In this document: piece by piece, positions 10,350-64,000 of the stretch
Numbering within the stretch: position 1 is the stretch's first letter
How the letters are laid out: each line of letters opens with the position of its first letter
Assembly (NCBI RefSeq): GCF_003668555.1
Contig: NZ_RCWN01000001.1
Span: forward strand, 2,951,501-3,015,500
Source of the DNA: Notoacmeibacter ruber
GTDB taxonomy: Bacteria; Pseudomonadota; Alphaproteobacteria; Rhizobiales; Rhizobiaceae
Direction of reading: 5' to 3'
Length of the DNA: 64,000 nucleotides
Made by a program: the position numbers and the translations under genes
The notes under the pieces: model-generated
Databases searched by the model: none
The model's input: only the letters and a program-made list of their open reading frames with translations
What the model was told of the DNA's origin: nothing

Positions 10350-10967
10350 ATGGCAATCACCCTTCCCGATGGAATTCGCTTCATCCCGGGCGTTCTCGAC
10401 CGCCCCGCCCAAGAGGCATTGGTCGAAGAGGTGCGGGCCGTCGTGTCGAAAGCCCCCCTGTTCGTGCCGCGTATGCCGCGAACGGGCAAGGCGATGAGCG
10501 TTCGCATGACCAATTGCGGATCGCTCGGCTGGGTCACGGATAAGGAGCGCGGCTATCGCTACCAGCCGACTCATCCCGAAACGGGTGAGCCATGGCCGCC
10601 TATCCCGGCCAGCCTGCTTGAACTCTGGACCCAATATGCCGACTGGCCCCATCCGCCGGAAGCGTGTCTGGTAAACTTCTACGAGGACACGGCCAAAATG
10701 GGCCTGCATCAGGATAAGGACGAGGAGGAGATGAACGCGCCGGTGCTTTCCGTCTCTCTTGGTGACACGGCCCTCTTTCGCGTCGGTCCTCCGGCTGGCG
10801 GCCGCACGACGTCCTTCCGTCTGGAGAGCGGTGATGTGGTTGTTCTGGGCGGGGAGGGGCGTATGGCCCGCCATGGCGTCGACCGTCTTCTGCCTGGCAC
10901 CTCCACCCGTTTGAAGGGTGGCGGCCGTCTCAATCTCACCCTCCGGCGGGTAACGAGGTCCCGCTAG
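10350..10967 (+). CDS. alkB: Alkylated DNA repair dioxygenase AlkB
   Basis: Fe(II)/2-oxoglutarate dioxygenase that removes methyl groups from N1-methyladenine and N3-methylcytosine by oxidation. The iron ligands are visible as His120 and Asp122 in GLHQDKDE and His175 in ARHGVDR. The 2-oxoglutarate-binding arginines are in GRLNLTLRR. At 205 residues it has the usual length for bacterial AlkB. It directly follows a TetR-type regulator, presumably in the same transcript. Confidence 0.93.
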   Translation: MAITLPDGIRFIPGVLDRPAQEALVEEVRAVVSKAPLFVPRMPRTGKAMSVRMTNCGSLGWVTDKERGYRYQPTHPETGEPWPPIPASLLELWTQYADWPHPPEACLVNFYEDTAKMGLHQDKDEEEMNAPVLSVSLGDTALFRVGPPAGGRTTSFRLESGDVVVLGGEGRMARHGVDRLLPGTSTRLKGGGRLNLTLRRVTRSR

Positions 10968-10982
10968 CGTCTCTCTATCAGA

Positions 10983-11603
10983 TCAGGAGACCGGCAGCGG
11001 ATCGCGCCTGTCTGAAGCCGGTTCGGTCCGAGGCGCCATAGGCTGAGTGACGGCCGCGGGCTCGTCCGTGATCGGCTCCGGAGCCGTCATCTTCGGCAGT
11101 TTGACGGGGACGCCTCCCAGAGCCTTGCTGCCGATCGTTTCAGCCGCCTTCCTGGCGAGTTCGGCCTCCACACGGCTCTTGTTCTGGAGCGCGGAGACAG
11201 CCAGTCCGGCTACGCCATTCAGCACATAGCTCGACGTATCGGCCGTGGTGAAGCGCTGCTGCCACTCCGTCTCGCCGGTGGCCTCGTCGGAAATGGTCGC
11301 GGTGCTTTGCATCCGGTTCCCGTCACCGGCGATCAGCGACACGACCGGATTCTTGAAATGAACTTCGGTGATCTCGACGGCCAGCCGTTTCGATGCGCCC
11401 TTTTCGGGCTGGCCTGCAACGGCTTGCCGAAGCCCGTCCTCCGTCATCCGGGCGACGGCGGGCGAACCGCCCTGCGCTGGTTTCGAAACGTCGACAGAGG
11501 AGAAATAATAGTCGCCCGCTGGTTTGTAGGCGCTCTGGCTCTGGCACCCTGCCAGTCCCATGAGCGCGATCATGGCGGCTGCAAATGTTCTGAGGGGGGC
11601 CAT
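10983..11603 (-). CDS. Predicted lipoprotein of unknown function
   Basis: A lipoprotein signal peptide is visible: basic start, hydrophobic stretch, and lipobox LAGC, with the Cys about 20 residues in. The mature part of about 185 residues has no domain I recognise. The middle includes a region predicted to be alternating strands (RLAVEITEVHFKNPVVSLIA), and the C-terminus is rich in Pro, Thr and Glu. The second of two adjacent ATGs (11603) has better spacing from GGAGAG than 11606. It is convergent with alkB and divergent from a glutathione S-transferase gene. Confidence 0.72.
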   Translation of the reverse strand: MAPLRTFAAAMIALMGLAGCQSQSAYKPAGDYYFSSVDVSKPAQGGSPAVARMTEDGLRQAVAGQPEKGASKRLAVEITEVHFKNPVVSLIAGDGNRMQSTATISDEATGETEWQQRFTTADTSSYVLNGVAGLAVSALQNKSRVEAELARKAAETIGSKALGGVPVKLPKMTAPEPITDEPAAVTQPMAPRTEPASDRRDPLPVS

Positions 11604-17495: not shown

Positions 17496-18083
17496 TCACT
17501 TCGAAGTGTCCGGCATGGCGTCGACTGCATAGCGCTGTATCGTCGGACCAAGGGATTCAATCACCTCGTTCCGGGACATGGCCGCAATAGGGGGAAGTTG
17601 CAGGATGTAGCGACAGAGCGCCAGTCCGAACAACTGGCTGACGATCAGGCCGGCCCGGCGTTCGGCGTCGATCGGGTTAATGCGAGTGACCATGGGCACA
17701 ACCTGGCGGGCGAAAACATCGTGTATATCGGCCCGCATCTCCTCGTTCTGCGCCGCTGAGCGAAGCAGAATGGCGAGACCCTGATCGCGTTTCTCGTCCT
17801 CCCAGAGGTCAAGAAAATGCTCGGTCAGGGTCTTGCCGATCTCCTCGCGATTAAGGCTCCCGGGATCGGGAAACTGCAGGTCGACCACCGTGGCGGCCGC
17901 GAATAGCCGCTCTTTCGAGCCGAAATAACGGATAACCATAGAGGGGTCGATGGGGACGGCCTGAGCGATTTTCCGCACCGTCGCGCCTTCATAGCCTCTT
18001 TCAAAAAAGAGACGACGGGCTGCTATGAGGATTGCGCTTCTGGTTCGCGAGGATTTGGTAGCGTTGCGGTGTTCATCGTGCAT
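17496..18083 (-). CDS. TetR family transcriptional regulator
   Basis: Repressor-type protein with an N-terminal helix-turn-helix (TRSAILIAARRLFFERGYEG to MVIRYFGSKERLF) and a C-terminal region typical of TetR regulators of small-molecule response. The ATG at 18083 is chosen; an in-frame TTG at 18098 would overlap the first operator copy. It is divergent from the HXXEE membrane protein gene, and two near-identical palindromes lie in the shared intergenic region, so it probably controls itself and that gene. The pair interrupts the trp region. The inducer is unknown. Confidence 0.9.
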   Translation of the reverse strand: MHDEHRNATKSSRTRSAILIAARRLFFERGYEGATVRKIAQAVPIDPSMVIRYFGSKERLFAAATVVDLQFPDPGSLNREEIGKTLTEHFLDLWEDEKRDQGLAILLRSAAQNEEMRADIHDVFARQVVPMVTRINPIDAERRAGLIVSQLFGLALCRYILQLPPIAAMSRNEVIESLGPTIQRYAVDAMPDTSK

Positions 18084-53679: not shown

Positions 53680-54303
53680 ATGCCCGGCACTCTTGTCCTT
53701 GTCCGCCACGGCCAGAGCGAATGGAACCTGAAAAACCTTTTCACCGGATGGAAGGATCCTGACCTCACCGAGAAGGGTGTCGCCGAAGCCAAGGCGGCGG
53801 GCAGGGCCCTGAAGGAGAAGGGCGTTTCTTTCGATCTCGCATTCACCTCCGAATTGTCGCGAGCGCAAAGAACGCTGTCGCTCATTCTGGAAGAGCTTGG
53901 CCAGACGGGTCTGGAGACGCGCAAGGATCTGGCGCTCAACGAGCGTGACTATGGCGATCTGGCGGGTCTCAACAAGGATGACGCGCGCGACAAATGGGGC
54001 GAGGAGCAGGTGCATATCTGGCGCCGCAGCTACGATACGCCGCCGCCGGGCGGCGAAAGCCTGAAGGACACGCTGGCGCGCACGCTCCCCTATTTCGTGA
54101 CCGATATCCTGCCTGAAGTGATGGCCGGAAAGAACGTGATCGTCGCCGCGCACGGCAATTCGCTGCGGTCGATCTGCATGGTGCTTAACCGGCTGAGCGA
54201 GGATGAGATCGTCGGCTTTGAAATCGCCACGGGCGTTCCGCTCGTCTATGAACTGGGCGACGATACGCTGGTGACCCGCCGCGAAACGCTGTCAGGCGAA
54301 TGA
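53680..54303 (+). CDS. gpmA: 2,3-bisphosphoglycerate-dependent phosphoglycerate mutase
   Basis: Interconverts 3- and 2-phosphoglycerate in glycolysis and gluconeogenesis. The phospho-histidine motif is in [32 protein letters not shown] and [12 protein letters not shown] follow. At 207 residues it is the shorter form typical of alphaproteobacteria. The ATG at 53680 directly precedes the beta strand of the motif. It is the last core gene before the tRNA-Leu and accessory DNA. Confidence 0.95.
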
Positions 54304-54404
54304 CACGCTGAAAGACAGAAGGTAGGCGGTCGCGTAAAGACGCGTTTTGAGCGTTGACAGCGCACCGCCCGCCGTCTAGATCGGCGCACGACCAAAACGG
54401 CATT

Positions 54405-54489
54405 GCCCAGGTGGCGGAATTGGTAGACGCGCACGGTTCAGGTCCGTGTGCCGCGAGGCGTGGAGGTTCGAGTCCTCTCCTGGGCACCA
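54405..54489 (+). tRNA. tRNA-Leu (anticodon CAG)
   Basis: An 85-nt cloverleaf begins GCCCAGGTGG and ends CTGGGC-A-CCA with CCA encoded. It has the long variable arm typical of tRNA-Leu. The anticodon loop TTCAGGT gives CAG, reading CUG. Its 3' end is a common integration target; a P4-type integrase gene lies 190 bp downstream, so this is probably the attachment site. Confidence 0.96.
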
Positions 54490-54508
54490 TTTTCCAGTTT
54501 TCTACAGG

Positions 54509-54561
54509 ACATTGAAGCGCACAGAAGTCTTGGAATTCAAGGCTTCTGTGCGCTTCAATGT
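54509..54561. repeat. Strong 24-bp hairpin between tRNA-Leu and the integrase gene
   Basis: ACATTGAAGCGCACAGAAG (54509-54527) is perfectly complementary to 54543-54561. The pairing extends inward by one T:G and four more pairs (54529-54532 with 54538-54541), leaving loop GAATT. There is no T-run afterwards, so it is not a simple terminator. It may be an integrase or accessory-factor site, or a structured RNA at the end of the tRNA transcript. Confidence 0.8.
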
Positions 54562-54600
54562 ATCAGTATCGTCCGATGCAGTCCGCTGACATCCTGAGTT

Positions 54601-54666
54601 TTTGTTGGTACATTTGTTGGTGCTTGTGGCTTGAATGGTCGTTTATGACGCCGTGACACCAACAAA
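54601..54666. repeat. TTTGTTGGT repeats before the integrase gene
   Basis: TTTGTTGGT occurs at 54601-54609 and 54613-54621, spaced 12 bp, and in inverted form as CACCAACAAA at 54657-54666. The last copy overlaps the integrase ribosome site AAAGGAG (54664-54670). Copies could be arm-type integrase sites. In RNA, 54613-54622 can pair with 54657-54666 and hide the ribosome site. Confidence 0.65.
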
Positions 54667-54675
54667 GGAGTGGCC

Positions 54676-55872
54676 GTGCCTCTGACCGATACGAAGATTC
54701 GTAATCTCAAAGCTGCGGAGAAGCCGATAAAGCATTCGGACGGCGGAGGGCTTCATCTGCTCGTCACGGCAAACGGATCAAAGCTGTGGCGGCTGAACTA
54801 TCGGTTCTACGGAAAGCAGAAGACGCTTTACATCGGCGCTTGGCCGGCAGTCAGTCTCGCTGACGCTCGTTTGAGACGCGAATCCGCCAAGAAGTTACTC
54901 GCCCAGTCCATCGATCCTGCCGCCCAGGCTAAACATGAACGAATTGAACGCCAGGCAAATTTCGCGAACACGTTCGGCGCAATAGCCGACGAGGTTCTGG
55001 AACGAAACGAAAAGGAAGGGTTGGCGGCCGTCACGATCAACAAGAAGCGCTGGTTGATCGATCTGGTCAGGCCTGCGCTAGGGAAGCGGCCCGTCAGGGA
55101 TATCACCGCTCCCGAACTCTTGAACGAACTGCGCAAAGTGGAAGCGAAAGGCAATTATGAGACGGCCCGCCGGCTTCGTGCGGTTTGCGGGCAAGTCTTT
55201 CGCTACGCCGTGATCACGTCACGCGCAGATTTCGACCCATCCGCTGCACTTCGTGGCGCGTTAATCAGCCCCACCGTGACGTCCCAAGCCGCGATTACCG
55301 AGTGGGGTAAGTTTGGGGGATTGCTGCGAGCCATTTGGGGGTATGACGGCCATGCTTCGACCCGATATGGTCTGCAACTGCTAGCCCTACTCTATCCGCG
55401 TCCTGGCGAGCTTCGTCAGGCGGAATGGTCCGAAATTGATCTCGAAGCCGGTGTCTGGACGATCCCGGCCCAGAGAGCAAAAATGCGGCGCGAGCATCGG
55501 AAGCCGCTTTCGAAGGAGGCTGCCGATATCTTCGCGGAAGTACACAAGCTGAATGGCTTCAGCAAATACGTCTTCCCAGCAATTCATACAACGCAGCGAC
55601 CCCTGAGCGAAAATACATTCAATGCGGCTCTCAGAAGAATGGGCTTCGATAAGCACGAGATGACCAGTCACGGTTTCCGGGCTTCCGCATCAACTTTGCT
55701 GAACGAGAGCGGGCGGTGGAATCCGGATGCCATCGAGGCCGAACTCGGTCATGTCGGTGCAGATGAGGTGCGCCGAGCTTACCATCGAGCGCTGTATTGG
55801 GACGAGCGCGTCAGAATGACCGGTGCATGGGCCGCGCAAATAAGCGAAGCTGTCGGCATCAGCGCTAGATAG
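54676..55872 (+). CDS. int: Tyrosine recombinase (P4-type integrase)
   Basis: Site-specific recombinase of 398 residues. The N-terminal DUF4102 arm-binding domain (LTDTKIRNLKAAEKPIKHSD, GGGLHLLVTANGSKLWRL) is followed by a core-binding domain and the catalytic domain. The catalytic residues are R242 (RPGEL), H332 and R335 (HGFRA), H359 (GHV) and Tyr369 (RRAYHRA). The GTG at 54676 lies at good spacing after AAAGGAG. It is complete and reads away from the tRNA-Leu it probably used as target. Confidence 0.93.
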   Translation: MPLTDTKIRNLKAAEKPIKHSDGGGLHLLVTANGSKLWRLNYRFYGKQKTLYIGAWPAVSLADARLRRESAKKLLAQSIDPAAQAKHERIERQANFANTFGAIADEVLERNEKEGLAAVTINKKRWLIDLVRPALGKRPVRDITAPELLNELRKVEAKGNYETARRLRAVCGQVFRYAVITSRADFDPSAALRGALISPTVTSQAAITEWGKFGGLLRAIWGYDGHASTRYGLQLLALLYPRPGELRQAEWSEIDLEAGVWTIPAQRAKMRREHRKPLSKEAADIFAEVHKLNGFSKYVFPAIHTTQRPLSENTFNAALRRMGFDKHEMTSHGFRASASTLLNESGRWNPDAIEAELGHVGADEVRRAYHRALYWDERVRMTGAWAAQISEAVGISAR

Positions 55873-55932
55873 CCTAAATTTGATGTAGTTCAGCCGATCC
55901 ACAGCTACATTCTCATAGGTCGCCTATCTACT

Positions 55933-56193
55933 GGCCGCAATCCGGAAAAGCCGCTTTCGAATATGGTGTTTTTGAAGATCATGAAGCGTATGCAGGTCGA
56001 GGCACGACCTCACGGCTTGCGGTCATCATTTCGCGACTAGGCATCGGAAGCGACCTCGTATCCTCACGAGATTGCTGAAATGGCACTCGCGCACGCGATT
56101 GAGAACAAGGTCGAGGCCGCTTACCGTCGCGGCGATCTCTTGGACAAGCGACGGCTTATGATGGAAGACTGGGCCGGTTACGTCACCATCTAG
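55933..56193 (+). pseudogene. Remnant C-terminus of a second tyrosine integrase
   Basis: Translating 55933 onward gives the end of a phage-type integrase: GRNPEKPLSNMVFLKIMKRM, then PHGLRSSFRD, an in-frame TAG at 56038-56040 where Trp is expected (RDWASE), then SYPHEIAEMALAHAIENKVE and AAYRRGDLLDKRRLMMEDWA with the catalytic Tyr region. The rest of the gene is missing. It differs from the intact integrase just upstream, so an earlier element probably used the same tRNA site. Confidence 0.82.
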
Positions 56194-56212
56194 GAATCAG
56201 GAGAGCCGACCC

Positions 56213-57196
56213 TTGCCGAAAAAATTGATAGGGCCAAACTCGCACGTTCTTGAAAAGAACGCGACGTCATATGCCAAATTCTTGAGCCTCCATGACGAAG
56301 GATGCACCGTCAAGGAAGCGGCACGAAGGTTGGGAGTAAGTGCTTCGACAATCTATCGATGGCAGAGGGGTCTAGAGTGGGATTGGTTTGAGGGAGATGG
56401 GTTTGGGATCGAAAACGCGATTGAGGCGCTCTGCTATCCCGAGAGATTTGAAAAGGACGTATTTCTAATTGCCGTGCTGGAGTTCATGGTTTGGATACAG
56501 TCCCCGCATCTTGCCGTGTTCGCCAACCAAAATATCGCGGCATGCCTTATAGCGTATCATCTAGAGGAGGGGGACTGCTTAACGTTAGCTGACGTTCCCA
56601 ACGAGAGCCGGAAAGTTATCGAAGAAGGTATAAATCTATATACAGTCCTCCGGATAGTCGATGCATCGGTTGATATCCAACATCCTTTATATAGTGAAAT
56701 TGATTTTAATCTCGATGAACGAAGCGCTCTATTTCTTGCTGAAATTTGCGAGTTTTTCATCTCGTCCGCCGCCCATTCAAAATACGGTGGAAAGGCGAGT
56801 AAAATTGCGACGCATGATCTCATAAGCAAGGGAGTGTTTGGAGCTTCAAATGTTATCTCGAAGCGGACCTATGATAAACTATTAGTTCGAAGAGGAGCTA
56901 GTCTCCCATTTCTTTACGCAAGTTTTTACCATTCCGACATCGATTGGATATTGAACCCCGCCGAGGAAAATTTCGTAAAGCGCGTAAATGCCATTGTGAC
57001 CGACCCAGCGAGAGTCAAACACTATTTTTCTGTTTGCAAATGGGTCAGCGGTCGTCTCCGGGACGTGCTTCATAAGGGAACAAAGCTCTTAGAGCACCTG
57101 CCGCAGTTTCCTGAAGATCTCAGCGCGACAAGGGTGGAAGTCACAGAGCTTTCAGATCTGCAAATATCAGCGCTAAATGACTGGTATCTAAGATAG
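56213..57196 (+). CDS. Helix-turn-helix protein of unknown function in the element
   Basis: A 327-residue protein with an N-terminal Hin/resolvase-type helix-turn-helix (CTVKEAARRLGVSASTIYRW, about 31-50) and a longer unrecognised region after it. The rest is rich in Ile, Phe and Asn, and GC content is clearly lower than in the core genes, a sign of transfer. TTG at 56213 has AGGAG upstream. A regulatory or terminase-small-subunit-like role is possible but not shown. Confidence 0.68.
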   Translation: MPKKLIGPNSHVLEKNATSYAKFLSLHDEGCTVKEAARRLGVSASTIYRWQRGLEWDWFEGDGFGIENAIEALCYPERFEKDVFLIAVLEFMVWIQSPHLAVFANQNIAACLIAYHLEEGDCLTLADVPNESRKVIEEGINLYTVLRIVDASVDIQHPLYSEIDFNLDERSALFLAEICEFFISSAAHSKYGGKASKIATHDLISKGVFGASNVISKRTYDKLLVRRGASLPFLYASFYHSDIDWILNPAEENFVKRVNAIVTDPARVKHYFSVCKWVSGRLRDVLHKGTKLLEHLPQFPEDLSATRVEVTELSDLQISALNDWYLR

Positions 57197-57260
57197 AAAT
57201 GTTATGTAGGAACTGGCTCGTCTTCGAGAGATAGCTTTTCTGGTCTACCCATTTGTTGCG

Positions 57261-57273
57261 GTGAAAATTTCAC
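57261..57273. promoter_or_regulatory. Palindrome upstream of the AlpA-like gene
   Basis: GTGAAA-A-TTTCAC is a near-perfect inverted repeat 26 bp before the AlpA-like start codon. It could be the operator of the AlpA-like protein or another element regulator. Confidence 0.4.
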
Positions 57274-57298
57274 ATCGCTTCAAGAATGGAGAAGACCG

Positions 57299-57565
57299 AT
57301 GATAAGCGAACATGTATTCAACGATGGCTTCGTAAGACTGAGTTCAATCCTTGGCCCTGACGGGCCGATCCCGATTAGCCGATCCTCTTGGTGGCAAGGT
57401 GTACGAGACGGCCGTTTTCCGGCACCGCTGAAAATTGGTCCTCGCACGACCGTTTGGCGGGTGAGTGAAGTCAGTGCTCTCATCGACCAATTGCAAGATG
57501 AGATCGTCCCTCACAATGACCAGAATAGCCCGCCCGCAAATTCTTCTGAGCTGAAGGAGGGCTGA
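57299..57565 (+). CDS. AlpA-family regulator or excisionase-like protein
   Basis: Small DNA-binding protein of 88 residues. FVRLSSILGPDGPIPISRSS then WWQGVRDGRFPAPLKIGPRT and VWRVSEV follow the AlpA/MerR-like winged-helix pattern of satellite-phage regulators (residue positions about 11-58). Such proteins activate or excise integrated elements. GGAGAAG precedes the ATG. It is three bases upstream of the HUH-DUF927 gene and forms an operon with it. Confidence 0.82.
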   Translation: MISEHVFNDGFVRLSSILGPDGPIPISRSSWWQGVRDGRFPAPLKIGPRTTVWRVSEVSALIDQLQDEIVPHNDQNSPPANSSELKEG

Positions 57566-57568
57566 ACG

Positions 57569-60148
57569 ATGACGATCCATCAGAAAACCCGTTCTACGTT
57601 CAAATTGTCATTACCGAAGGGCGATTGGAAGCACCTTCTGCCAGAATTCGAGTCAGCCGCAATGGCCGCAAAAATGCGGAGAGCGGTTGTCAACGCGCTA
57701 AAAAAGCTTGAACTTTCACATGCGAAGATGGACCACTGTCGACCGAATAACAGATGCGAGAGTGGCCTGTGTCCTTCGTGTGTTCGTCGCCGCCGTCTTG
57801 CGCTGGGTGAGTTCTTCGACAGTCGCCAACTCATTTTTATCGACTGGAAGTTCGCGACCATCCGTGTTGCGAACTGGATGAAGGAACCCGGTGATCACAC
57901 TCGATTCGGGCCTCTGGCTCAACATCCAGACATCACGAAGTTTGTCGCCGAACTCCGCAAACTACGCAGAAGGGGCCTCCTCGTTATAGGATCCATTGAA
58001 GCGGTCTATGTTACTGTCGGCAATAAGCCAGAAGGAAAGAACTTTCATATCCATGTGCTCATCAGCGGTCTGTCTTTAGAGCAGATTCGAGAAGCGGCCG
58101 GCGCTGCATTTACGCTCGACAACAGGGTTAAAAATCCAGTTTTGGTTCAGCCTGTTGATCGTCAGCCGCGCGATCTGATCAAGGCACTGACCTATGTCTA
58201 CAAGCAGCCATTCTGGAAAAAATCAAAGACCGATCATGGAGATGTTGGGCGGAAACAATTTCCAAAGCCCAAGGAGCTGCGTGAACTGATCCGGAATTAT
58301 GGCGAACATCGTCTTGATGAGCGACTCATTCTCGAGGGTGTCCGCTGGGAAGGTACCAAATTCTCAATCGTCGAACAGCTGTTGCCGGATCAGCTTAAGA
58401 TCCCTTACCTGCCTTTGAATGTTAAAACTGTTGGTGAAGGAGGTACGGTAAGTGGCAACACTGGTATCGCTGAACCGCAGCTAAAGTCAGACGACGGTGA
58501 CCTGTTATCGAATGATACCGTATCGGCTGAAGGCGCGCACCCCGTACACCCTTCTAAAGGCACGTCGATCAAATTGCTCCGGCAGATTGAATCGCTCGAT
58601 GACGGAACCGTCAGCCTCTTCATTCAATATCCGAAGAATGATGGGTCCGTCGGACAACTTTCACTCCCGCGCGAGACCTTGGTCAAGTCGGCTGATTTCA
58701 AGAGCCTTCTAATAGGAAAGGGTGCTGACGCCTCGCTAAATTATAAGTCTGCAGCGGACACGCTTCTGTCGCAGCGAGCAGCCGTCACCATTCATTCGAC
58801 GGCAACACCGGGTTGGCATGACAACTACTTTATCTGCCATGCCGGCGGATGGGGAAATAGGCCCGAAAGCGTTGCAGAGGTTATCTTCGCTCCATCGAGC
58901 GATTCTTACCCCCTCAAAGGTTCTACAGGCGACATCTCAACGTTCCTGGCGGGTATCCACGCGCTGTTTGAACAATCGGATATCCTGCTTCTGGCATATC
59001 TGTGTGCTCTGTTGCCGCCGCTAGCTATGAGATTGGGGGTGAAAAGCGGGTTCTCCGTCAATCTCGTCGGCGAATCTACCACCGGTAAGACGTTGACGCT
59101 ACGTTTGGCTCAAGCGATCAGTAGCCGCGCAGAGGAAAAAGACCTTCAAACGTTCAATCTCACCCCCGGCGCGTTGGAGCCGGCTCTTCGTGAGCGAAGC
59201 GGGTCTGCTGTCGTCTTCGGCGACATCAAGGCAGCCAAAGAGAAAGGCCTTGGACATGTTGAAAAGATTCAGCAACTGATTTTCGCAGTTCACGGAAGAG
59301 ATGGAAGAGGCACACTTCATCAAAGGGAAGTTCCCATTCCGTTTTGTCTGGTCATGTTGTCCGACGAAATTTCACTTGAGGAACGTTATCGGCAAGCGAA
59401 GCAAAAACTCGAAACAGGAGACCGGGTCCGCTGTATTGAATTGAGAATTCCGTCCCGAGACAAGGGAGGGGTATTCAATCGCCTAGAAAATCCGAACGAT
59501 GCGATGGCAGCGGCTCAAGACTTAGAAAATCTGATCGATAGCGCCTACGGAACCGTTTTCCCCGACTGGATTGCAGCTTTAGCTGGAAAAACAGTTGAAT
59601 CGCTGAAATCAGATTTCAATGCGGAAGCGAAGCGTTTCACCGAACGTCTCGACATTTTGGATGGACTGGGAAGACGCTTCTCAGTTTCCTTCGGCTATCT
59701 CGCTGCGACAGCAAAAATTGCGGAGGCAGCTAATTTGCTATCCCCAAAAGCGAAAGCAGGAGAGGCTTTGTCTCGACTTTTCGAAGACGCAGCGGCCGGC
59801 CTTCGCCCAGAAGAGATCGACTTAACGATTGAATTTGAACGATTGGCAAATTTTGTCGACCAGAAAGATAAAGTTCCCACCGCAAGTAGAGGAAAGGCTC
59901 TTCAAGAGGACACGGGGGCGTTCTTCCGCAACGAGGGTGCCGTCATTCACCTCTACGTGAGATCGGAAGAATTGGGTCGAGTGGTGGGATCGAAGGTTGA
60001 AGTCTTCATAGCAAAGCTTCTGGATGGAGGAGCGGTGATCCGCGGCAAAAGCGGAAGAACGAAGAATGTGAAGCAGAAAGGTATTGGGCGTTCTCGATAT
60101 TTGGATATCGACTACGGCAAATTTTTAGCGATAAGAGCGAAATTGTAA
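57569..60148 (+). CDS. HUH-endonuclease-like domain fused to DUF927 helicase-like domain
   Basis: An 859-residue protein with AAGGAGG upstream of its ATG. The N-terminal part has a four-Cys cluster (Cys57, 63, 68, 71 in CRPNNRCESGLCPSC) and an HUH motif His160-Ile-His162 (KNFHIHVLISG), with a possible catalytic Tyr at 209 or 211 (LTYVYKQPF). This is the pattern of rolling-circle initiators. The C-terminal part (about 410-700) is DUF927: Walker A GESTTGKT (501-508) and a Walker B-like AVVFGDI (547-553). The whole resembles a nick-and-unwind replication initiator. I have not seen this exact fusion named. GC is lower than in core genes. A terminator follows. Confidence 0.75.
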   Translation: MTIHQKTRSTFKLSLPKGDWKHLLPEFESAAMAAKMRRAVVNALKKLELSHAKMDHCRPNNRCESGLCPSCVRRRRLALGEFFDSRQLIFIDWKFATIRVANWMKEPGDHTRFGPLAQHPDITKFVAELRKLRRRGLLVIGSIEAVYVTVGNKPEGKNFHIHVLISGLSLEQIREAAGAAFTLDNRVKNPVLVQPVDRQPRDLIKALTYVYKQPFWKKSKTDHGDVGRKQFPKPKELRELIRNYGEHRLDERLILEGVRWEGTKFSIVEQLLPDQLKIPYLPLNVKTVGEGGTVSGNTGIAEPQLKSDDGDLLSNDTVSAEGAHPVHPSKGTSIKLLRQIESLDDGTVSLFIQYPKNDGSVGQLSLPRETLVKSADFKSLLIGKGADASLNYKSAADTLLSQRAAVTIHSTATPGWHDNYFICHAGGWGNRPESVAEVIFAPSSDSYPLKGSTGDISTFLAGIHALFEQSDILLLAYLCALLPPLAMRLGVKSGFSVNLVGESTTGKTLTLRLAQAISSRAEEKDLQTFNLTPGALEPALRERSGSAVVFGDIKAAKEKGLGHVEKIQQLIFAVHGRDGRGTLHQREVPIPFCLVMLSDEISLEERYRQAKQKLETGDRVRCIELRIPSRDKGGVFNRLENPNDAMAAAQDLENLIDSAYGTVFPDWIAALAGKTVESLKSDFNAEAKRFTERLDILDGLGRRFSVSFGYLAATAKIAEAANLLSPKAKAGEALSRLFEDAAAGLRPEEIDLTIEFERLANFVDQKDKVPTASRGKALQEDTGAFFRNEGAVIHLYVRSEELGRVVGSKVEVFIAKLLDGGAVIRGKSGRTKNVKQKGIGRSRYLDIDYGKFLAIRAKL

Positions 60149-60155
60149 AATTCGC

Positions 60156-60190
60156 AGTGGGCGTCACGTTCCGGGTGACGCCCACTTTCT
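60156..60190 (+). terminator. Rho-independent terminator after the HUH-DUF927 gene
   Basis: AGTGGGCGTCAC (60156-60167) pairs perfectly with GTGACGCCCACT (60175-60186), followed by TTCT. It ends the AlpA/HUH-DUF927 operon. Confidence 0.88.
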
Positions 60191-60249
60191 CTATGCGAAC
60201 CGGTTTGTCTTGACCGGGATTATTGCCGCTCGGCTATCGTTCGGTTTCC

Positions 60250-61263
60250 ATGCAGACCGAACACGCAGAGACGCTGAACAACTCCGCGATCACACTGGTC
60301 GAAAGCATTGTCGGTCTACAATCTTTCGAGTGGCTGACAGCTCTTCGACGGCGCATGCGGCCGGTTCTCAGAGCGCATGCCGATGGCGACAATGATCCGC
60401 TCTTTCGCTACCTGCTGACGGCGTTTCAGTATCAGGGCATGACGGATGCAAACGTCTCGGCCTTGCTGGAGCAAGCGCCGGTGCCGGGTACCGCGGAGAT
60501 TGCATGGGCTCTTCGATCCGGCTCCGGTTGCGGCCTTCTGACCAGCCATTGGCATTTTGAGGGATGCGGATACCGGAAAACTGAGGCGATCTGTCACTAC
60601 CCTCATCTTCTAGACGGATGCGCGGTTCCGAATATGGATCTTCGCAATGGCCGTCTTTGTCAGGGAGCGATCAGTTTCTTCCTCTTCGTTCGTGATGTCT
60701 GCGACGATGATCTTCTCGGCTGGATCGACAAGCGTCTCAGCGTGTCCTGCCCGGACCTCTCGGACCGACAGCAGGCAAAAGAAGCGATGATTCGCCCGCT
60801 CAGCCATGTGTTCGGCGTCTCCGATAAGGTTCTGTCGCTCGCACTGTCCGATGTCCTTCTGGCCGATCAGAGACATGTGATGCGGGTCAGAGCCGGCGCG
60901 TCGCTCATCGTCGTGGACACGCTGGTTCATAATTTTCTGGTCCGCACTGGCATCCTCCGACAGCTCGGCTTCGAACATTCCTATGGTGCCGGTTGCTATG
61001 GTGAGCGGGGATGCGCGACCGCCATCGATGTTCTGACGGATCGTCTAAGCGAACGAGACCCGAACGCATATGACGGCCAAAAGACGCTGTTCCCGCGCCA
61101 TGTGCAGAAGGCGATCTGGTCGTTCTGCGCTCAGTCCGGTTTCGACATCTGCAACGGCAACAGGATCGAGAATACGCGAAGATGCGACAACGAAATCTGC
61201 CCAGTTTTCGATCTCTGCGAACGGCGGCCTCTGCGTCCGTTCAATGCGAGGAAAAACAATTAA
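60250..61263 (+). CDS. Divergent endonuclease III-like DNA glycosylase (predicted)
   Basis: A 337-residue protein that I cannot assign to a named family by sight, but the C-terminal half resembles HhH-GPD glycosylases. FGVSDKVLSLALSDVLL could be the helix-hairpin-helix with Lys193. LIVVDTLVHNFLVRTG matches VDTxxxR with Asp223. The Cys set C301, C312, C317, C323 (x10, x4, x5) resembles the endonuclease III iron-sulfur loop (x6, x2, x5). The N-terminal half is unassigned and also Cys-rich. An upstream TTG at 60223 is possible; the ATG at 60250 is chosen. A role in DNA repair or defence is inference. Confidence 0.6.
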   Translation: MQTEHAETLNNSAITLVESIVGLQSFEWLTALRRRMRPVLRAHADGDNDPLFRYLLTAFQYQGMTDANVSALLEQAPVPGTAEIAWALRSGSGCGLLTSHWHFEGCGYRKTEAICHYPHLLDGCAVPNMDLRNGRLCQGAISFFLFVRDVCDDDLLGWIDKRLSVSCPDLSDRQQAKEAMIRPLSHVFGVSDKVLSLALSDVLLADQRHVMRVRAGASLIVVDTLVHNFLVRTGILRQLGFEHSYGAGCYGERGCATAIDVLTDRLSERDPNAYDGQKTLFPRHVQKAIWSFCAQSGFDICNGNRIENTRRCDNEICPVFDLCERRPLRPFNARKNN

Positions 61264-61276
61264 AATCAGATGCTTA

Positions 61277-61305
61277 TTGTGTTTTCGCGTGTGTTTTGCT
61301 ATGAT
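61277..61305 (+). promoter_or_regulatory. Sigma-70-like promoter
   Basis: TTGTGT (61277-61282) and TATGAT (61300-61305) are separated by 17 bp, predicting a start near 61312. It would drive a leader that runs into the hairpin at 61421 before the gene at 61459. Confidence 0.55.
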
Positions 61306-61311
61306 CGGGGT

Positions 61312-61443
61312 GCACGACAGGCAAACCCTTGCAGGCAAAGGCATGATCGAACCATCACAACATCGACGCCAGCTAGACCGCCACCGCCACGTGCGACCTC
61401 ATCTTCAAACCGATCCGAACAGGGCCCCATCCGGGCCCTTTTT
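61312..61443 (+). ncRNA. Possible leader or small RNA ending in a terminator
   Basis: Between the predicted promoter and the next gene, AGGGCCC (61421-61427) pairs perfectly with GGGCCCT (61433-61439), followed by a T-run (TTTTTCTTT). A transcript of about 130 nt is predicted. Either it is a small RNA or the terminator acts as an attenuator for the gene at 61459. The stretch between holds no evident gene. Confidence 0.45.
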
Positions 61444-61458
61444 CTTTGGGAGACCGAC

Positions 61459-62049
61459 ATGACGAGTAAATCCGCCAAACCAGCCGCAACGACCACCGAT
61501 CAACTGAGCGGACTCGCCAGCGTCATCGTGCTCGGCCGAGACGACAAGGCCAAGCCGCATGCCTCATGGTTCGGGGCCAGCGAGGAAGAGCTAGCCAGGA
61601 AGGCCGCCGGTCTGATGGGCATGGCGACCCTTACGGTATCCGGTGAAGAACTCGAAGGGCTGAGCCGGCGGCTGCCGCAGGGCAAAGTCTTTGCCAGCGG
61701 CAAGGCGTTCGTGCCTTTCGTCAAGGCCGAGCTGTTCGAGCAATTGGCCGGCCATCTGCCGGAGGCCGAGCGCGAGCTGCTGAAGCCCCAGGAACCGCCC
61801 GAACCGTTCGATGGAGATACGTTCTTGATCGAGTCCTGGGACAAGCTTTCCATCGGCGGAGTGGTCCTCGCATGGGAGGGCAAGGATGCCGGATGGTGGG
61901 AAGCGGTCATCACCGCCATTCACCCAAACGATCTCGTGACCCTGCAATGGTGCGACTATCCCGACGAACCCAGGGCGGTTCGCAAGCGAAGCCATATCGC
62001 ACTGCTCCACCCGAAGCACGATCAGCCGATCACCGGCAAGGCAGCCTGA
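61459..62049 (+). CDS. Accessory protein of unknown function
   Basis: A 196-residue soluble protein. The N-terminal part contains SVIVLGRDDKAKPHASWFGA followed by a helical region; the C-terminal part (about 125-185, GGVVLAWEGKDAGWWEAVI and TLQWCDYPDEPRAVRKRSHI) looks like a small beta barrel of Tudor or SH3 type. I recall similar proteins in accessory regions of alphaproteobacteria but know no function. GGGAG precedes the ATG. It is followed by the DUF3768 gene. Confidence 0.62.
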   Translation: MTSKSAKPAATTTDQLSGLASVIVLGRDDKAKPHASWFGASEEELARKAAGLMGMATLTVSGEELEGLSRRLPQGKVFASGKAFVPFVKAELFEQLAGHLPEAERELLKPQEPPEPFDGDTFLIESWDKLSIGGVVLAWEGKDAGWWEAVITAIHPNDLVTLQWCDYPDEPRAVRKRSHIALLHPKHDQPITGKAA

Positions 62050-62053
62050 GGCC

Positions 62054-62428
62054 ATGGAAGAGATGGTGATGGCCAAAGACACTGAGACGGGTCGTGCGGT
62101 GATGAAACAGGCCGATGCGATCCGGCGCTTCAACGATCAGTTCAGACAAACGTTTGTCGGCGGCACGGTTCTGACCACGGTCGGCGTGCGGGAACTAAAA
62201 GGTGCCGATCAAGTAGCGATCATTCGTGCCGTGCAGCGCTTTGACGATTTCCACCCGGAGAATGATCCGTTCGAAGAGCACGACTTCGGCGCGTTCGACC
62301 ATGACGGTACCCGCTACTTCTGGAAGATCGACTATTACGATCTCGACCTTCATCATCGCTCGAAGGATCCGGCCGATCCCGCGTTTACGATGCGCGTGCT
62401 GACAATCATGCGGGCCGATGAATACTGA
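62054..62428 (+). CDS. DUF3768 domain protein
   Basis: A 124-residue protein matching the DUF3768 pattern: IRRFNDQFRQTFVGGTVLTT, AVQRFDDFHPENDPFEEHDF, GAF, RYFWKIDYYDLDL and ADPAFTMRVLTIMRADEY. The function of the family is unknown; it is typical of mobile and accessory DNA in alphaproteobacteria. An ATG at 62069 is an alternative start. It lies five bases after the preceding gene and is probably cotranscribed. Confidence 0.85.
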   Translation: MEEMVMAKDTETGRAVMKQADAIRRFNDQFRQTFVGGTVLTTVGVRELKGADQVAIIRAVQRFDDFHPENDPFEEHDFGAFDHDGTRYFWKIDYYDLDLHHRSKDPADPAFTMRVLTIMRADEY

Positions 62429-62523
62429 TCGGCCCATCGTGATGATGCTGGCTCGTAAAGCGCTATCAGGGGTTAACCTGCCCCTTAACCGACTGAATGC
62501 CGCAAAAACGCCCAGCGAGCCCG

Positions 62524-62790
62524 CTACGCGCCCTTCGGTTTGCGGCCCGATGGTAGCCTCGGCCTGTCATTGCCCGGGTCGGTCACAGTGGCGAACAGTT
62601 CGGCGACCTCAACCTCCAATAGTTTGGCGACTGCCTCAAGCGTCGACACGGTGACGTTCTCCGAACCGCGCTCGATCCGGCCGACATATGATCGGTCGAT
62701 GCCGGTCTCCAAGGCCAGCCGTTCTTGGCTAAGTCCTTTTGCCACCCGTAGCCGCCGCATGTTCCAGCCGATTGTCGCGCGTACATCCAT
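62524..62790 (-). CDS. XRE family helix-turn-helix regulator
   Basis: An 88-residue protein. The helix-turn-helix domain is IGWNMRRLRVAKGLSQERLA to DRSYVGRIERGSENVTVSTL, as in phage Cro/CI-like repressors. The C-terminal tail is basic and Pro-rich. It is divergent from the secreted-protein gene. Its targets are unknown. Confidence 0.9.
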   Translation of the reverse strand: MDVRATIGWNMRRLRVAKGLSQERLALETGIDRSYVGRIERGSENVTVSTLEAVAKLLEVEVAELFATVTDPGNDRPRLPSGRKPKGA

Positions 62791-62887
62791 GCACGCAGAT
62801 CATCATTCTGCGGCTTCAGTATCGACGGACTGTGAATCCCGTATTAATATAAACATCGACATACCGATTGAAGTGAGGGGAGAACCA

Positions 62888-63301
62888 TTGAAACGACGAC
62901 TTATGATCGCCGCTTTGCTAGTCGGGATGAGTGCAAGCGGAGCATGGGCCGCGCAGTGCAACGACATCGAAGTCGAGCAGCTGGTCCTGAACATCTTGGA
63001 AGAGAATTGGCTCAACACACAAAATCAGCGCGTGCAGCGCTTCGCGGCCTTCCCCGCCATCTACGGCGGAGACCTCGTCTTCGATTTCTCGCTCAGCGCC
63101 ATTCGTGACCGCGGATTTGACGATCAGTCGATCCTGCAATGCGCGGCAACCTACAGCGGAAGCATGGAGCTGGTAGGGCCAGACAACCCTGAGGGCAGCC
63201 AAATCCTCGGACTGGTTGGCTTCTCGAACCTCTCCGGCGAAATCGTCTACAGCGTCGAGACCACGCTCGACGACCAGCTCTACGTCAACGCCCGATGGTA
63301 G
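62888..63301 (+). CDS. Secreted protein of unknown function
   Basis: A 137-residue protein with a clear signal peptide (KRRLMIAALLVGMSASGAWA|AQ). The mature part starts AQCNDIEVEQLVLNILEENW and has a second Cys in SILQCAATYSG, perhaps disulfide-bonded. I recognise no family. TTG at 62888 is five bases after GGGGAG and is the most likely start. Confidence 0.68.
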   Translation: MKRRLMIAALLVGMSASGAWAAQCNDIEVEQLVLNILEENWLNTQNQRVQRFAAFPAIYGGDLVFDFSLSAIRDRGFDDQSILQCAATYSGSMELVGPDNPEGSQILGLVGFSNLSGEIVYSVETTLDDQLYVNARW

Positions 63302-63367
63302 GCACGACCAAGCCTATCAAGCCTTCTCAGCGTCCCATTCCTTATCTCGATTAGTCGGAGAGCCCCG

Positions 63368-63892
63368 ATGAGTTCTTACCTCAATTCCATGCGCAAATAT
63401 GCCACCTTTTCCGGACGCGCGTCGCGGAAGGAGTATTGGCTCTTTGCGCTGTTTTATTTCATCTTCGGAGCGGTCGCCGTCTTTCTGGATGCTTTGCTGT
63501 TCGATGCTGTTGGCGAAGATCCCGGCCCCCTGACCATTATCTTCGTTCTCGTCCATATCCTTCCCGGCTTCGCCGTATTGAGCCGGCGGCTTCACGATAC
63601 CGATCATTCGGCGTGGTGGATGCTGCTCTATATTACCGGCATAGGCATCTTCATCCTACTAATCTTCGCTTTGATCCGCGGCACGGAAGGACCGAACCGG
63701 TACGGCCTGGACCCTTATAGCGAAGGAGGCGTCGGGCCGGCCGCAGCGCACGGTCACCCGCAGGGTGGCGGCGGCACGGATATCGTCGCAGAACTCGAGC
63801 GGCTTTCCAGCCTCAAGGAGCGCGGCGCGATCAGCGAAGATGAATATGCGGCGATGAAGGCAAGAGCGCTCGACACGGAGAAGCTGGCTTGA
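63368..63892 (+). CDS. DUF805 membrane protein with a C-terminal SHOCT-like motif
   Basis: A 174-residue membrane protein. YATFSGRASRKEYWLFALFY begins the DUF805 domain, and GFAVLSRRLHDTDHSAWWML is its second signature. About four helices follow the usual order. The C-terminal DIVAELERLSSLKERGAISE DEYAAMK matches the short SHOCT motif and is joined by a Gly/His-rich linker. The function is unknown. Its stop overlaps the start of the next gene. Confidence 0.9.
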   Translation: MSSYLNSMRKYATFSGRASRKEYWLFALFYFIFGAVAVFLDALLFDAVGEDPGPLTIIFVLVHILPGFAVLSRRLHDTDHSAWWMLLYITGIGIFILLIFALIRGTEGPNRYGLDPYSEGGVGPAAAHGHPQGGGGTDIVAELERLSSLKERGAISEDEYAAMKARALDTEKLA

Positions 63893-64000
63893 ACGACGGT
63901 GCAGCCTTCATGCTGGACATGATGATCGGCGGGGTGATCCTGCTGATGATCGTGGTGACGCCCATCGTCATCGCCTTCATCCGCAGGCACCCCAATCGCT
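63889..64000 (+). CDS. Partial gene at the window edge, perhaps a superinfection-immunity-type membrane protein
   Basis: A reading frame starts at TTG 63889 (overlapping the DUF805 stop as TTGA) and runs off the end. The 37 visible residues include a single membrane helix (MIGGVILLMIVVTPIVIAFI) followed by RRHPNR. A hydrophobic helix followed by a short basic Arg-His-x-Asn motif is seen in the superinfection immunity family, but the call is tentative because the rest is missing. Confidence 0.45.
   Translation, partial: MNDGAAFMLDMMIGGVILLMIVVTPIVIAFIRRHPNR

Follow-up and report, generated by a model that had tools for sequence, protein, structure and literature searches.

Two kinds of described replication protein (Rep) bear on the locus reported here. 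HUH-type nicking Reps with a built-in superfamily 3 (SF3) helicase are known from integrated plasmids of bacteria (PMC6668415). A different ATPase family, DUF927, is carried by Cch, which is related to the Rep helicase of SaPIbov1, and the Reps of Staphylococcus aureus pathogenicity islands (SaPIs) are self-loading replication initiators (PMC7581432). In the available parts of the sources, the partners of DUF927, whether fused or adjacent, are primases (PMC7693054), and the association with primases is also reported elsewhere (PMC5862659). The window analysed here is a stretch of 64,000 nucleotides from Notoacmeibacter ruber (contig NZ_RCWN01000001.1, positions 2,951,501 to 3,015,500). It contains an open reading frame (ORF) of 859 aa (57569..60148, + strand), with exactly the bounds given in the initial annotation, whose product carries a Rep-type HUH region ahead of a DUF927 ATPase. 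We propose that it is the initiator-helicase of an excised genomic island, probably acting in a rolling-circle mode.

The Rep-type HUH region occupies residues 1-290 (57569..58438, +). Read alongside its relatives, it contains a cysteine cluster of pattern C-x5-C-x4-C-x2-C (Cys57, Cys63, Cys68 and Cys71; 57737..57781, +) that is a probable metal site, an HIH motif at residues 160-162 (58046..58054, +) and a YVYK motif at residues 209-212, of which Tyr209 (58193..58195, +) is the candidate catalytic residue. A Pfam scan gave no match on residues 1-330. The cut-off of Rep_1 (PF01446) was not reached, with one of seven N-terminal family members scanned matching that model (E = 0.0072) and the window protein giving no hit. 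In hhalign comparisons the N-terminal family was nevertheless matched to Rep_1 at 95.7% (P = 1.1e-8) and 94.8%, against at most 0.5% for shuffled controls. A match of the six-row query to the DUF927 alignment (91.5% over 18 columns) was a self-match, as window residues 291-300 were present in both; the 20-row query gave 0.1%. Membership of the N-terminal family was set at an E value of 1e-3 or better in a hidden Markov model search, yielding 23 loci, three of which (L064, L069 and L070) are weak and possibly distant kin only. Across these 23 aligned rows the four cysteines are kept in 23, 23, 23 and 22, Tyr209 in all 23 and His160 in 21, a degree of motif conservation that, judged from the alignment, exceeds chance. 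The initial annotation had made its HUH assignment depend on the predicted N-terminal structure; comparison of the AlphaFold core using VIA-align 2 gave a fold that does not speak against HUH and lends it slight support. The joining of a predicted HUH-type Rep to a DUF927 ATPase is supported by hhalign, Pfam and conservation, and weakly by the AlphaFold model. From the motifs and the Rep_1 kinship, we infer that the protein may nick DNA and stay attached to the 5′ end.

The C-terminal module matches DUF927 at residues 331-562 (58559..59254, +; PF06048, E = 1.5e-16), with a score of 61.3 bits where the cut-off is 22.6. It is the sole Pfam family matched by the ATPase part at E values up to 1, and SF3 is not matched. 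The Walker A motif GESTTGKT (residues 501-508; 59069..59092, +) is intact, and is kept in 17 of 20 Rep-associated rows (absent from L025, L029 and L063), a set that takes in L031, where the neighbouring ORF is only a possible Rep. A profile built from eight C-terminal parts matched PDB entries 8tch (Pathogenicity island protein, 2.7e-20) and 5dgk (Active helicase, 9.6e-18), which we take to be the SaPI and staphylococcal cassette chromosome (SCC) DUF927 helicases; searched alone, the window C-terminal part matched no helicase in the PDB.

Relatives with both modules, as the initial annotation had anticipated, do exist. Of the 23 N-terminal family loci, 19 contain a DUF927-type ORF: two are fused (the window and L025, from genome G143) and 17 are split neighbours. 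Sixteen of the split pairs lie on the same strand with the Rep first and 36-330 bases between the open frames; the pair in L056 is on opposite strands with a slight overlap. No DUF927 ORF was found within the stretches fetched for L059, L064, L069 and L070. L030 was first found via its DUF927 ORF and then used as a seed, and is thus not independent evidence for adjacency. In L031 a 238-aa ORF (10643-11356), with LHFHIV and no Cys cluster, lies upstream of the DUF927 ORF of genome G070 and is perhaps a third, more distant type of partner.

The whole window protein matched three of 101 genomes including its own, the other two in the DUF927 half only. With residues 1-260, matches came from 6 of the 397 genomes searched in the order, taken to be Rhizobiales, again counting its own. 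A seven-row alignment (A1) matched 16 of the 397, counting own and seed genomes, and 8 of 289 genomes of the class, own included. A scan of genome_contigs recovered two loci, L071 and L072, both from an uncultured Rhizobiales bacterium, with L071 taken as the same contig as that of G247. The whole protein had no close relative in genome_contigs or phages, and no viral contig was matched in four scans. Three plasmid records matched it, in the C-terminal part only; the L072 Rep matched no plasmid and the L025 Rep gave two weak partial plasmid matches. Of 101 genomes from the order, 8 contain PF06048 itself, and three of these (G000, G119 and G143) have a Rep-type partner; DUF927 therefore often occurs without such a partner.

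Trees of the two modules bear on the history of the fusion. In the N-terminal tree (19 rows; L063, L064, L069 and L070 excluded) the window protein groups with the split L026 and L072 (100/100) and the fused L025 with the split L027 (96/93). The tree of the C-terminal modules (23 rows, with five canonical DUF927 proteins added and L063 and L029 excluded) again places the window with L026 and L072 (100/99), and L025, on a long branch, with L028 (99/97). The conflict over L025 may reflect module exchange or long-branch error. Well-supported branches of the N-terminal tree force two changes between split and fused states, and on the cheapest reading of these sequences fusion would have occurred at least twice; a single early fusion with several later splits is also compatible.

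The fusion gene lies in an integrative element inserted in a tRNA gene, a reading supported by the integrase, the tRNA-Leu and an att-like repeat. A tyrosine integrase (54670..55872, +; Arm-DNA-bind_3, 4e-25; Phage_int_M, 1e-27; Phage_integrase, 6e-19) stands beside the target tRNA-Leu (anticodon CAG; 54405..54489, +; ARAGORN). The 20 bp at the 3′ end of this tRNA, TCCTCTCCTGGGCACCATTT (attL-like core, 54473..54492, +), recur on contig C1 at 17935-17954, where ARAGORN finds no tRNA. With as many as three mismatches allowed, the 3′ end of the tRNA is matched at three places in the genome: the tRNA-Leu itself, C1:17935-17954 and a tRNA-Phe. GC content is 0.484 just inside the far end of the island and 0.596 outside. 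In two congeners (G001 and G002) the tRNA and the sequence to its left agree with those of the window, but the right flank is different; a guessed empty site, made by joining the flanks, was matched whole by no relative among 21 genomes. The initial annotation was right in proposing an integrative element, but not in its size: the stretch bounded by the att-like repeats measures at least 35.5 kb, counting assembled sequence only, and a small satellite element is rejected.

The contig ends inside the island. When its last 107 bases are reverse-complemented they are identical to its first 107, and the first 400 have no other match elsewhere in the genome. Because the 107-bp ends match in inverted orientation, without another genomic match, the assembly appears to break in an inverted repeat and a piece may be missing; the ends could stem from a break in the assembly or from a segment that inverts. 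These ends (L009 1-107 and the end of L005) fall in an apparent pair of inverted serine recombinase genes. By eye, L004 15927-19995 and L005 1-3132, also in the island, hold apparent type I restriction-modification genes on either side of an AAA ATPase. A 3.9-kb block is doubled within the island in inverted orientation with 90.5% identity (window 60231-64000 and C1:10711-14635, in L009), containing a 346-aa ORF, a 198-aa ORF, DUF3768, helix-turn-helix (HTH) and membrane-protein ORFs.

Directly upstream of the fusion gene, an AlpA-like regulator or excisionase (57299..57565, +; PF05930, 6.1e-7) stops 3 bases ahead of its start codon, in support of the coupling that the initial annotation had claimed. 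Further upstream is an ORF with an N-terminal HTH (56213..57196, +; HTH_29, 3.6e-7; HTH_23, 5.3e-7), a paralogue of which lies at the attR end (L009 16659-17696; phmmer, 1.1e-25). Downstream are the 198-aa ORF (61453..62046, +), which belongs to a module placed after the Rep genes, and the DUF3768 protein (62054..62428, +; PF12599, 6.6e-34), a family of which no mention was found in the open-licence literature. When window proteins were compared to the 18 other two-module loci (phmmer, E ≤ 0.001, some fetched stretches being short), homologues were found of DUF3768 in 10, of the 198-aa ORF and the integrase in 5 each and of AlpA in 3. These shared genes point to a family of elements that may be loosely held together.

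Three further ORFs or remnants were seen in the island. Positions 55943-56193 resemble, by eye, a disrupted C-terminal part of a further tyrosine integrase and read like the trace of an earlier insertion. The 346-aa ORF downstream of the fusion (60223-61263) has a Cys-rich C-terminus and no Pfam match; among fetched loci its homologues are the island's own second copy and one in L056 only. Near attR a 246-aa ORF (L009 14915-15652, +) carries, by eye, HUH- and Tyr-like LHYHV and YAMK without a Cys cluster, and has no homologue among the fetched loci.

A perfect 12-bp hairpin (60156..60186) begins 7 bases past the stop codon of the fusion gene. Of 11 loci examined, four (the window, L026, L027 and L066) have a perfect hairpin with a stem of at least 9 after the DUF927 ORF. 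As their sequences are unlike, the window hairpin is tentatively read as a terminator, the alternative being an origin nick-site hairpin. No direct repeat with three or more copies lying within 200 bases of one another was found in 55870-61300, nor any tandem array in 54000-64000.

Taken together, the two domains recognised by sequence, their recurrent adjacency and the integrase/tRNA/att-like setting form the observed basis of our proposal, to which we give somewhat better than even standing: that the window protein initiates replication of the island as an excised circle, by an HUH nick at Tyr209 and unwinding by a DUF927 ring. The integrase, assisted by AlpA, would excise the island as a circle, on which the HUH-type Rep domain would recognise an origin. 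Tyr209 would nick one strand and stay on the 5′ end, as the motifs and the relationship to the Rep_1 initiators of plasmids suggest. The C-terminal AAA+ module, of the Staphylococcus Cch/SaPI Rep kind, would then form a ring and unwind ahead of the host polymerase, with host synthesis followed by rejoining.

Several observations qualify this proposal. At the Walker B position the window protein reads AVVFGD (59207..59224, +; aligned with canonical DUF927 proteins), where five canonical proteins have LDE. GD is shared by the window, L026 and L025, with SD in L072, versus DE in the five. This weakens the predicted unwinding step and qualifies the initial annotation, which had listed both Walker motifs beside the HUH motif and Cys cluster: Cys, HIH, Tyr, DUF927 and Walker A stand, whilst Walker B is atypical. 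Because the window clade reads GD or SD rather than DE, its motor may be slow or unusual, or a clamp. Moreover, His162 is kept in 13 of the 23 N-terminal rows only. The initial annotation had taken the His and Tyr positions as those whose loss in homologues would count against it, and here the outcome is mixed: no row lacks the Tyr, but the second His is missing from 10 of the 23, among them 8 of the 19 two-module loci. Eleven of those 19 retain the complete His pair (the window, L025-L028, L063, L065-L068 and L072); the eight in which it is incomplete are L029, L030, L056-L058 and L060-L062. The window protein itself lacks none of these residues. One of these eight has HLQ at the HUH position, and an HUQ variant occurs in circovirus-type Reps. 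The Rep of pC194 uses an acidic residue four positions ahead of its Tyr; the window protein has Lys205 there, and no acid.

The main rival is a theta-type initiator without nicking, in which the HUH-fold domain only binds the origin, to be melted and unwound by the DUF927 part in the manner of SaPI Rep; HUH-fold domains bind origins without nicking in papillomavirus E1 and polyomavirus T antigen. The partial loss of the HUH motif favours this for the relatives concerned, less so for the window. Both His in the window and in 10 of 18 other two-module loci, and a Tyr in every row, would be needless for pure binding, and we regard a theta-type initiator as possible but unlikely. A related scenario is offered tentatively: a family of alphaproteobacterial integrative elements may use a two-part initiator, a Rep_1-like HUH domain with a DUF927 ring helicase, whose parts fused more than once and which in some lineages lost part of the nicking site while keeping the Tyr and Cys cluster, an SF3-independent bacterial parallel to the papilloma- and polyomavirus path from nicking Reps to non-nicking initiators.

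We consider it improbable that the joined protein is a non-functional relic of a split pair. The frame is open over all 859 codons, and none of HIH, Tyr, Cys4 and Walker A is disrupted; the atypical Walker B of the clade (GD in the window and L026, SD in L072) would fit decay, but is common to split relatives and thus not private to the fusion. The inverted 3.9-kb duplication and other marks of rearrangement in the island, and an L025 protein in which Walker A and Walker B are both off consensus, are also in keeping with decay. Equally doubtful is a relaxase-helicase serving conjugal transfer of the island rather than its replication. TraI too combines an HUH domain and a helicase in one chain, but relaxases have the Tyr first whereas here the HUH (160-162) precedes Tyr209, the Rep order. 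The hhalign match is likewise to Rep_1, although Rep_1 proteins can serve conjugal transfer (PMC5714925). The core reading of the initial annotation was right and better supported than it could know, with the function standing as a proposal; as a whole, that annotation is partly supported.

Ideas about how CRESS-DNA viruses arose build on nicking Reps with a built-in SF3 helicase (PMC6668415). If true, a second solution based on DUF927, present in bacterial islands in split and in fused form, would mean that nickases repeatedly come to be paired with a ring helicase of their own. The pair also suggests a role for DUF927 helicases beyond primase partnerships, and is a handle for finding such islands. 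No HUH-DUF927 pair was found in the accessible portions of the open-licence literature searched, and the novelty of an HUH-helicase Rep with DUF927 replacing SF3 is provisional.

The window protein shares with Rep_1 (the pC194/pUB110 family) a CPxC Cys cluster, a W-h-F-hTLT strand, HxH and YxxK in the same order. However, Rep_1 models score its family below cut-off, and the eight Rep_1 proteins compared are of 302-414 aa with no DUF927 part seen, unlike the fused or adjacent DUF927 here. SCCmec Cch, SaPIbov1 Rep and primase-DUF927 proteins have the same ATPase family and are element-borne, but the partners known for DUF927, in the available sources, are primases rather than an HUH-type Rep, and the Walker B differs. 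The HUH-SF3 Reps of pCRESS plasmids, CRESS-DNA viruses and parvoviruses likewise place a ring-ATPase behind an HUH nuclease-type domain in a single chain; the window protein differs in its DUF927 ATPase, in a Cys4 cluster ahead of the HUH domain and in having YVYK in place of the YLxH signature of pCRESS4-8.
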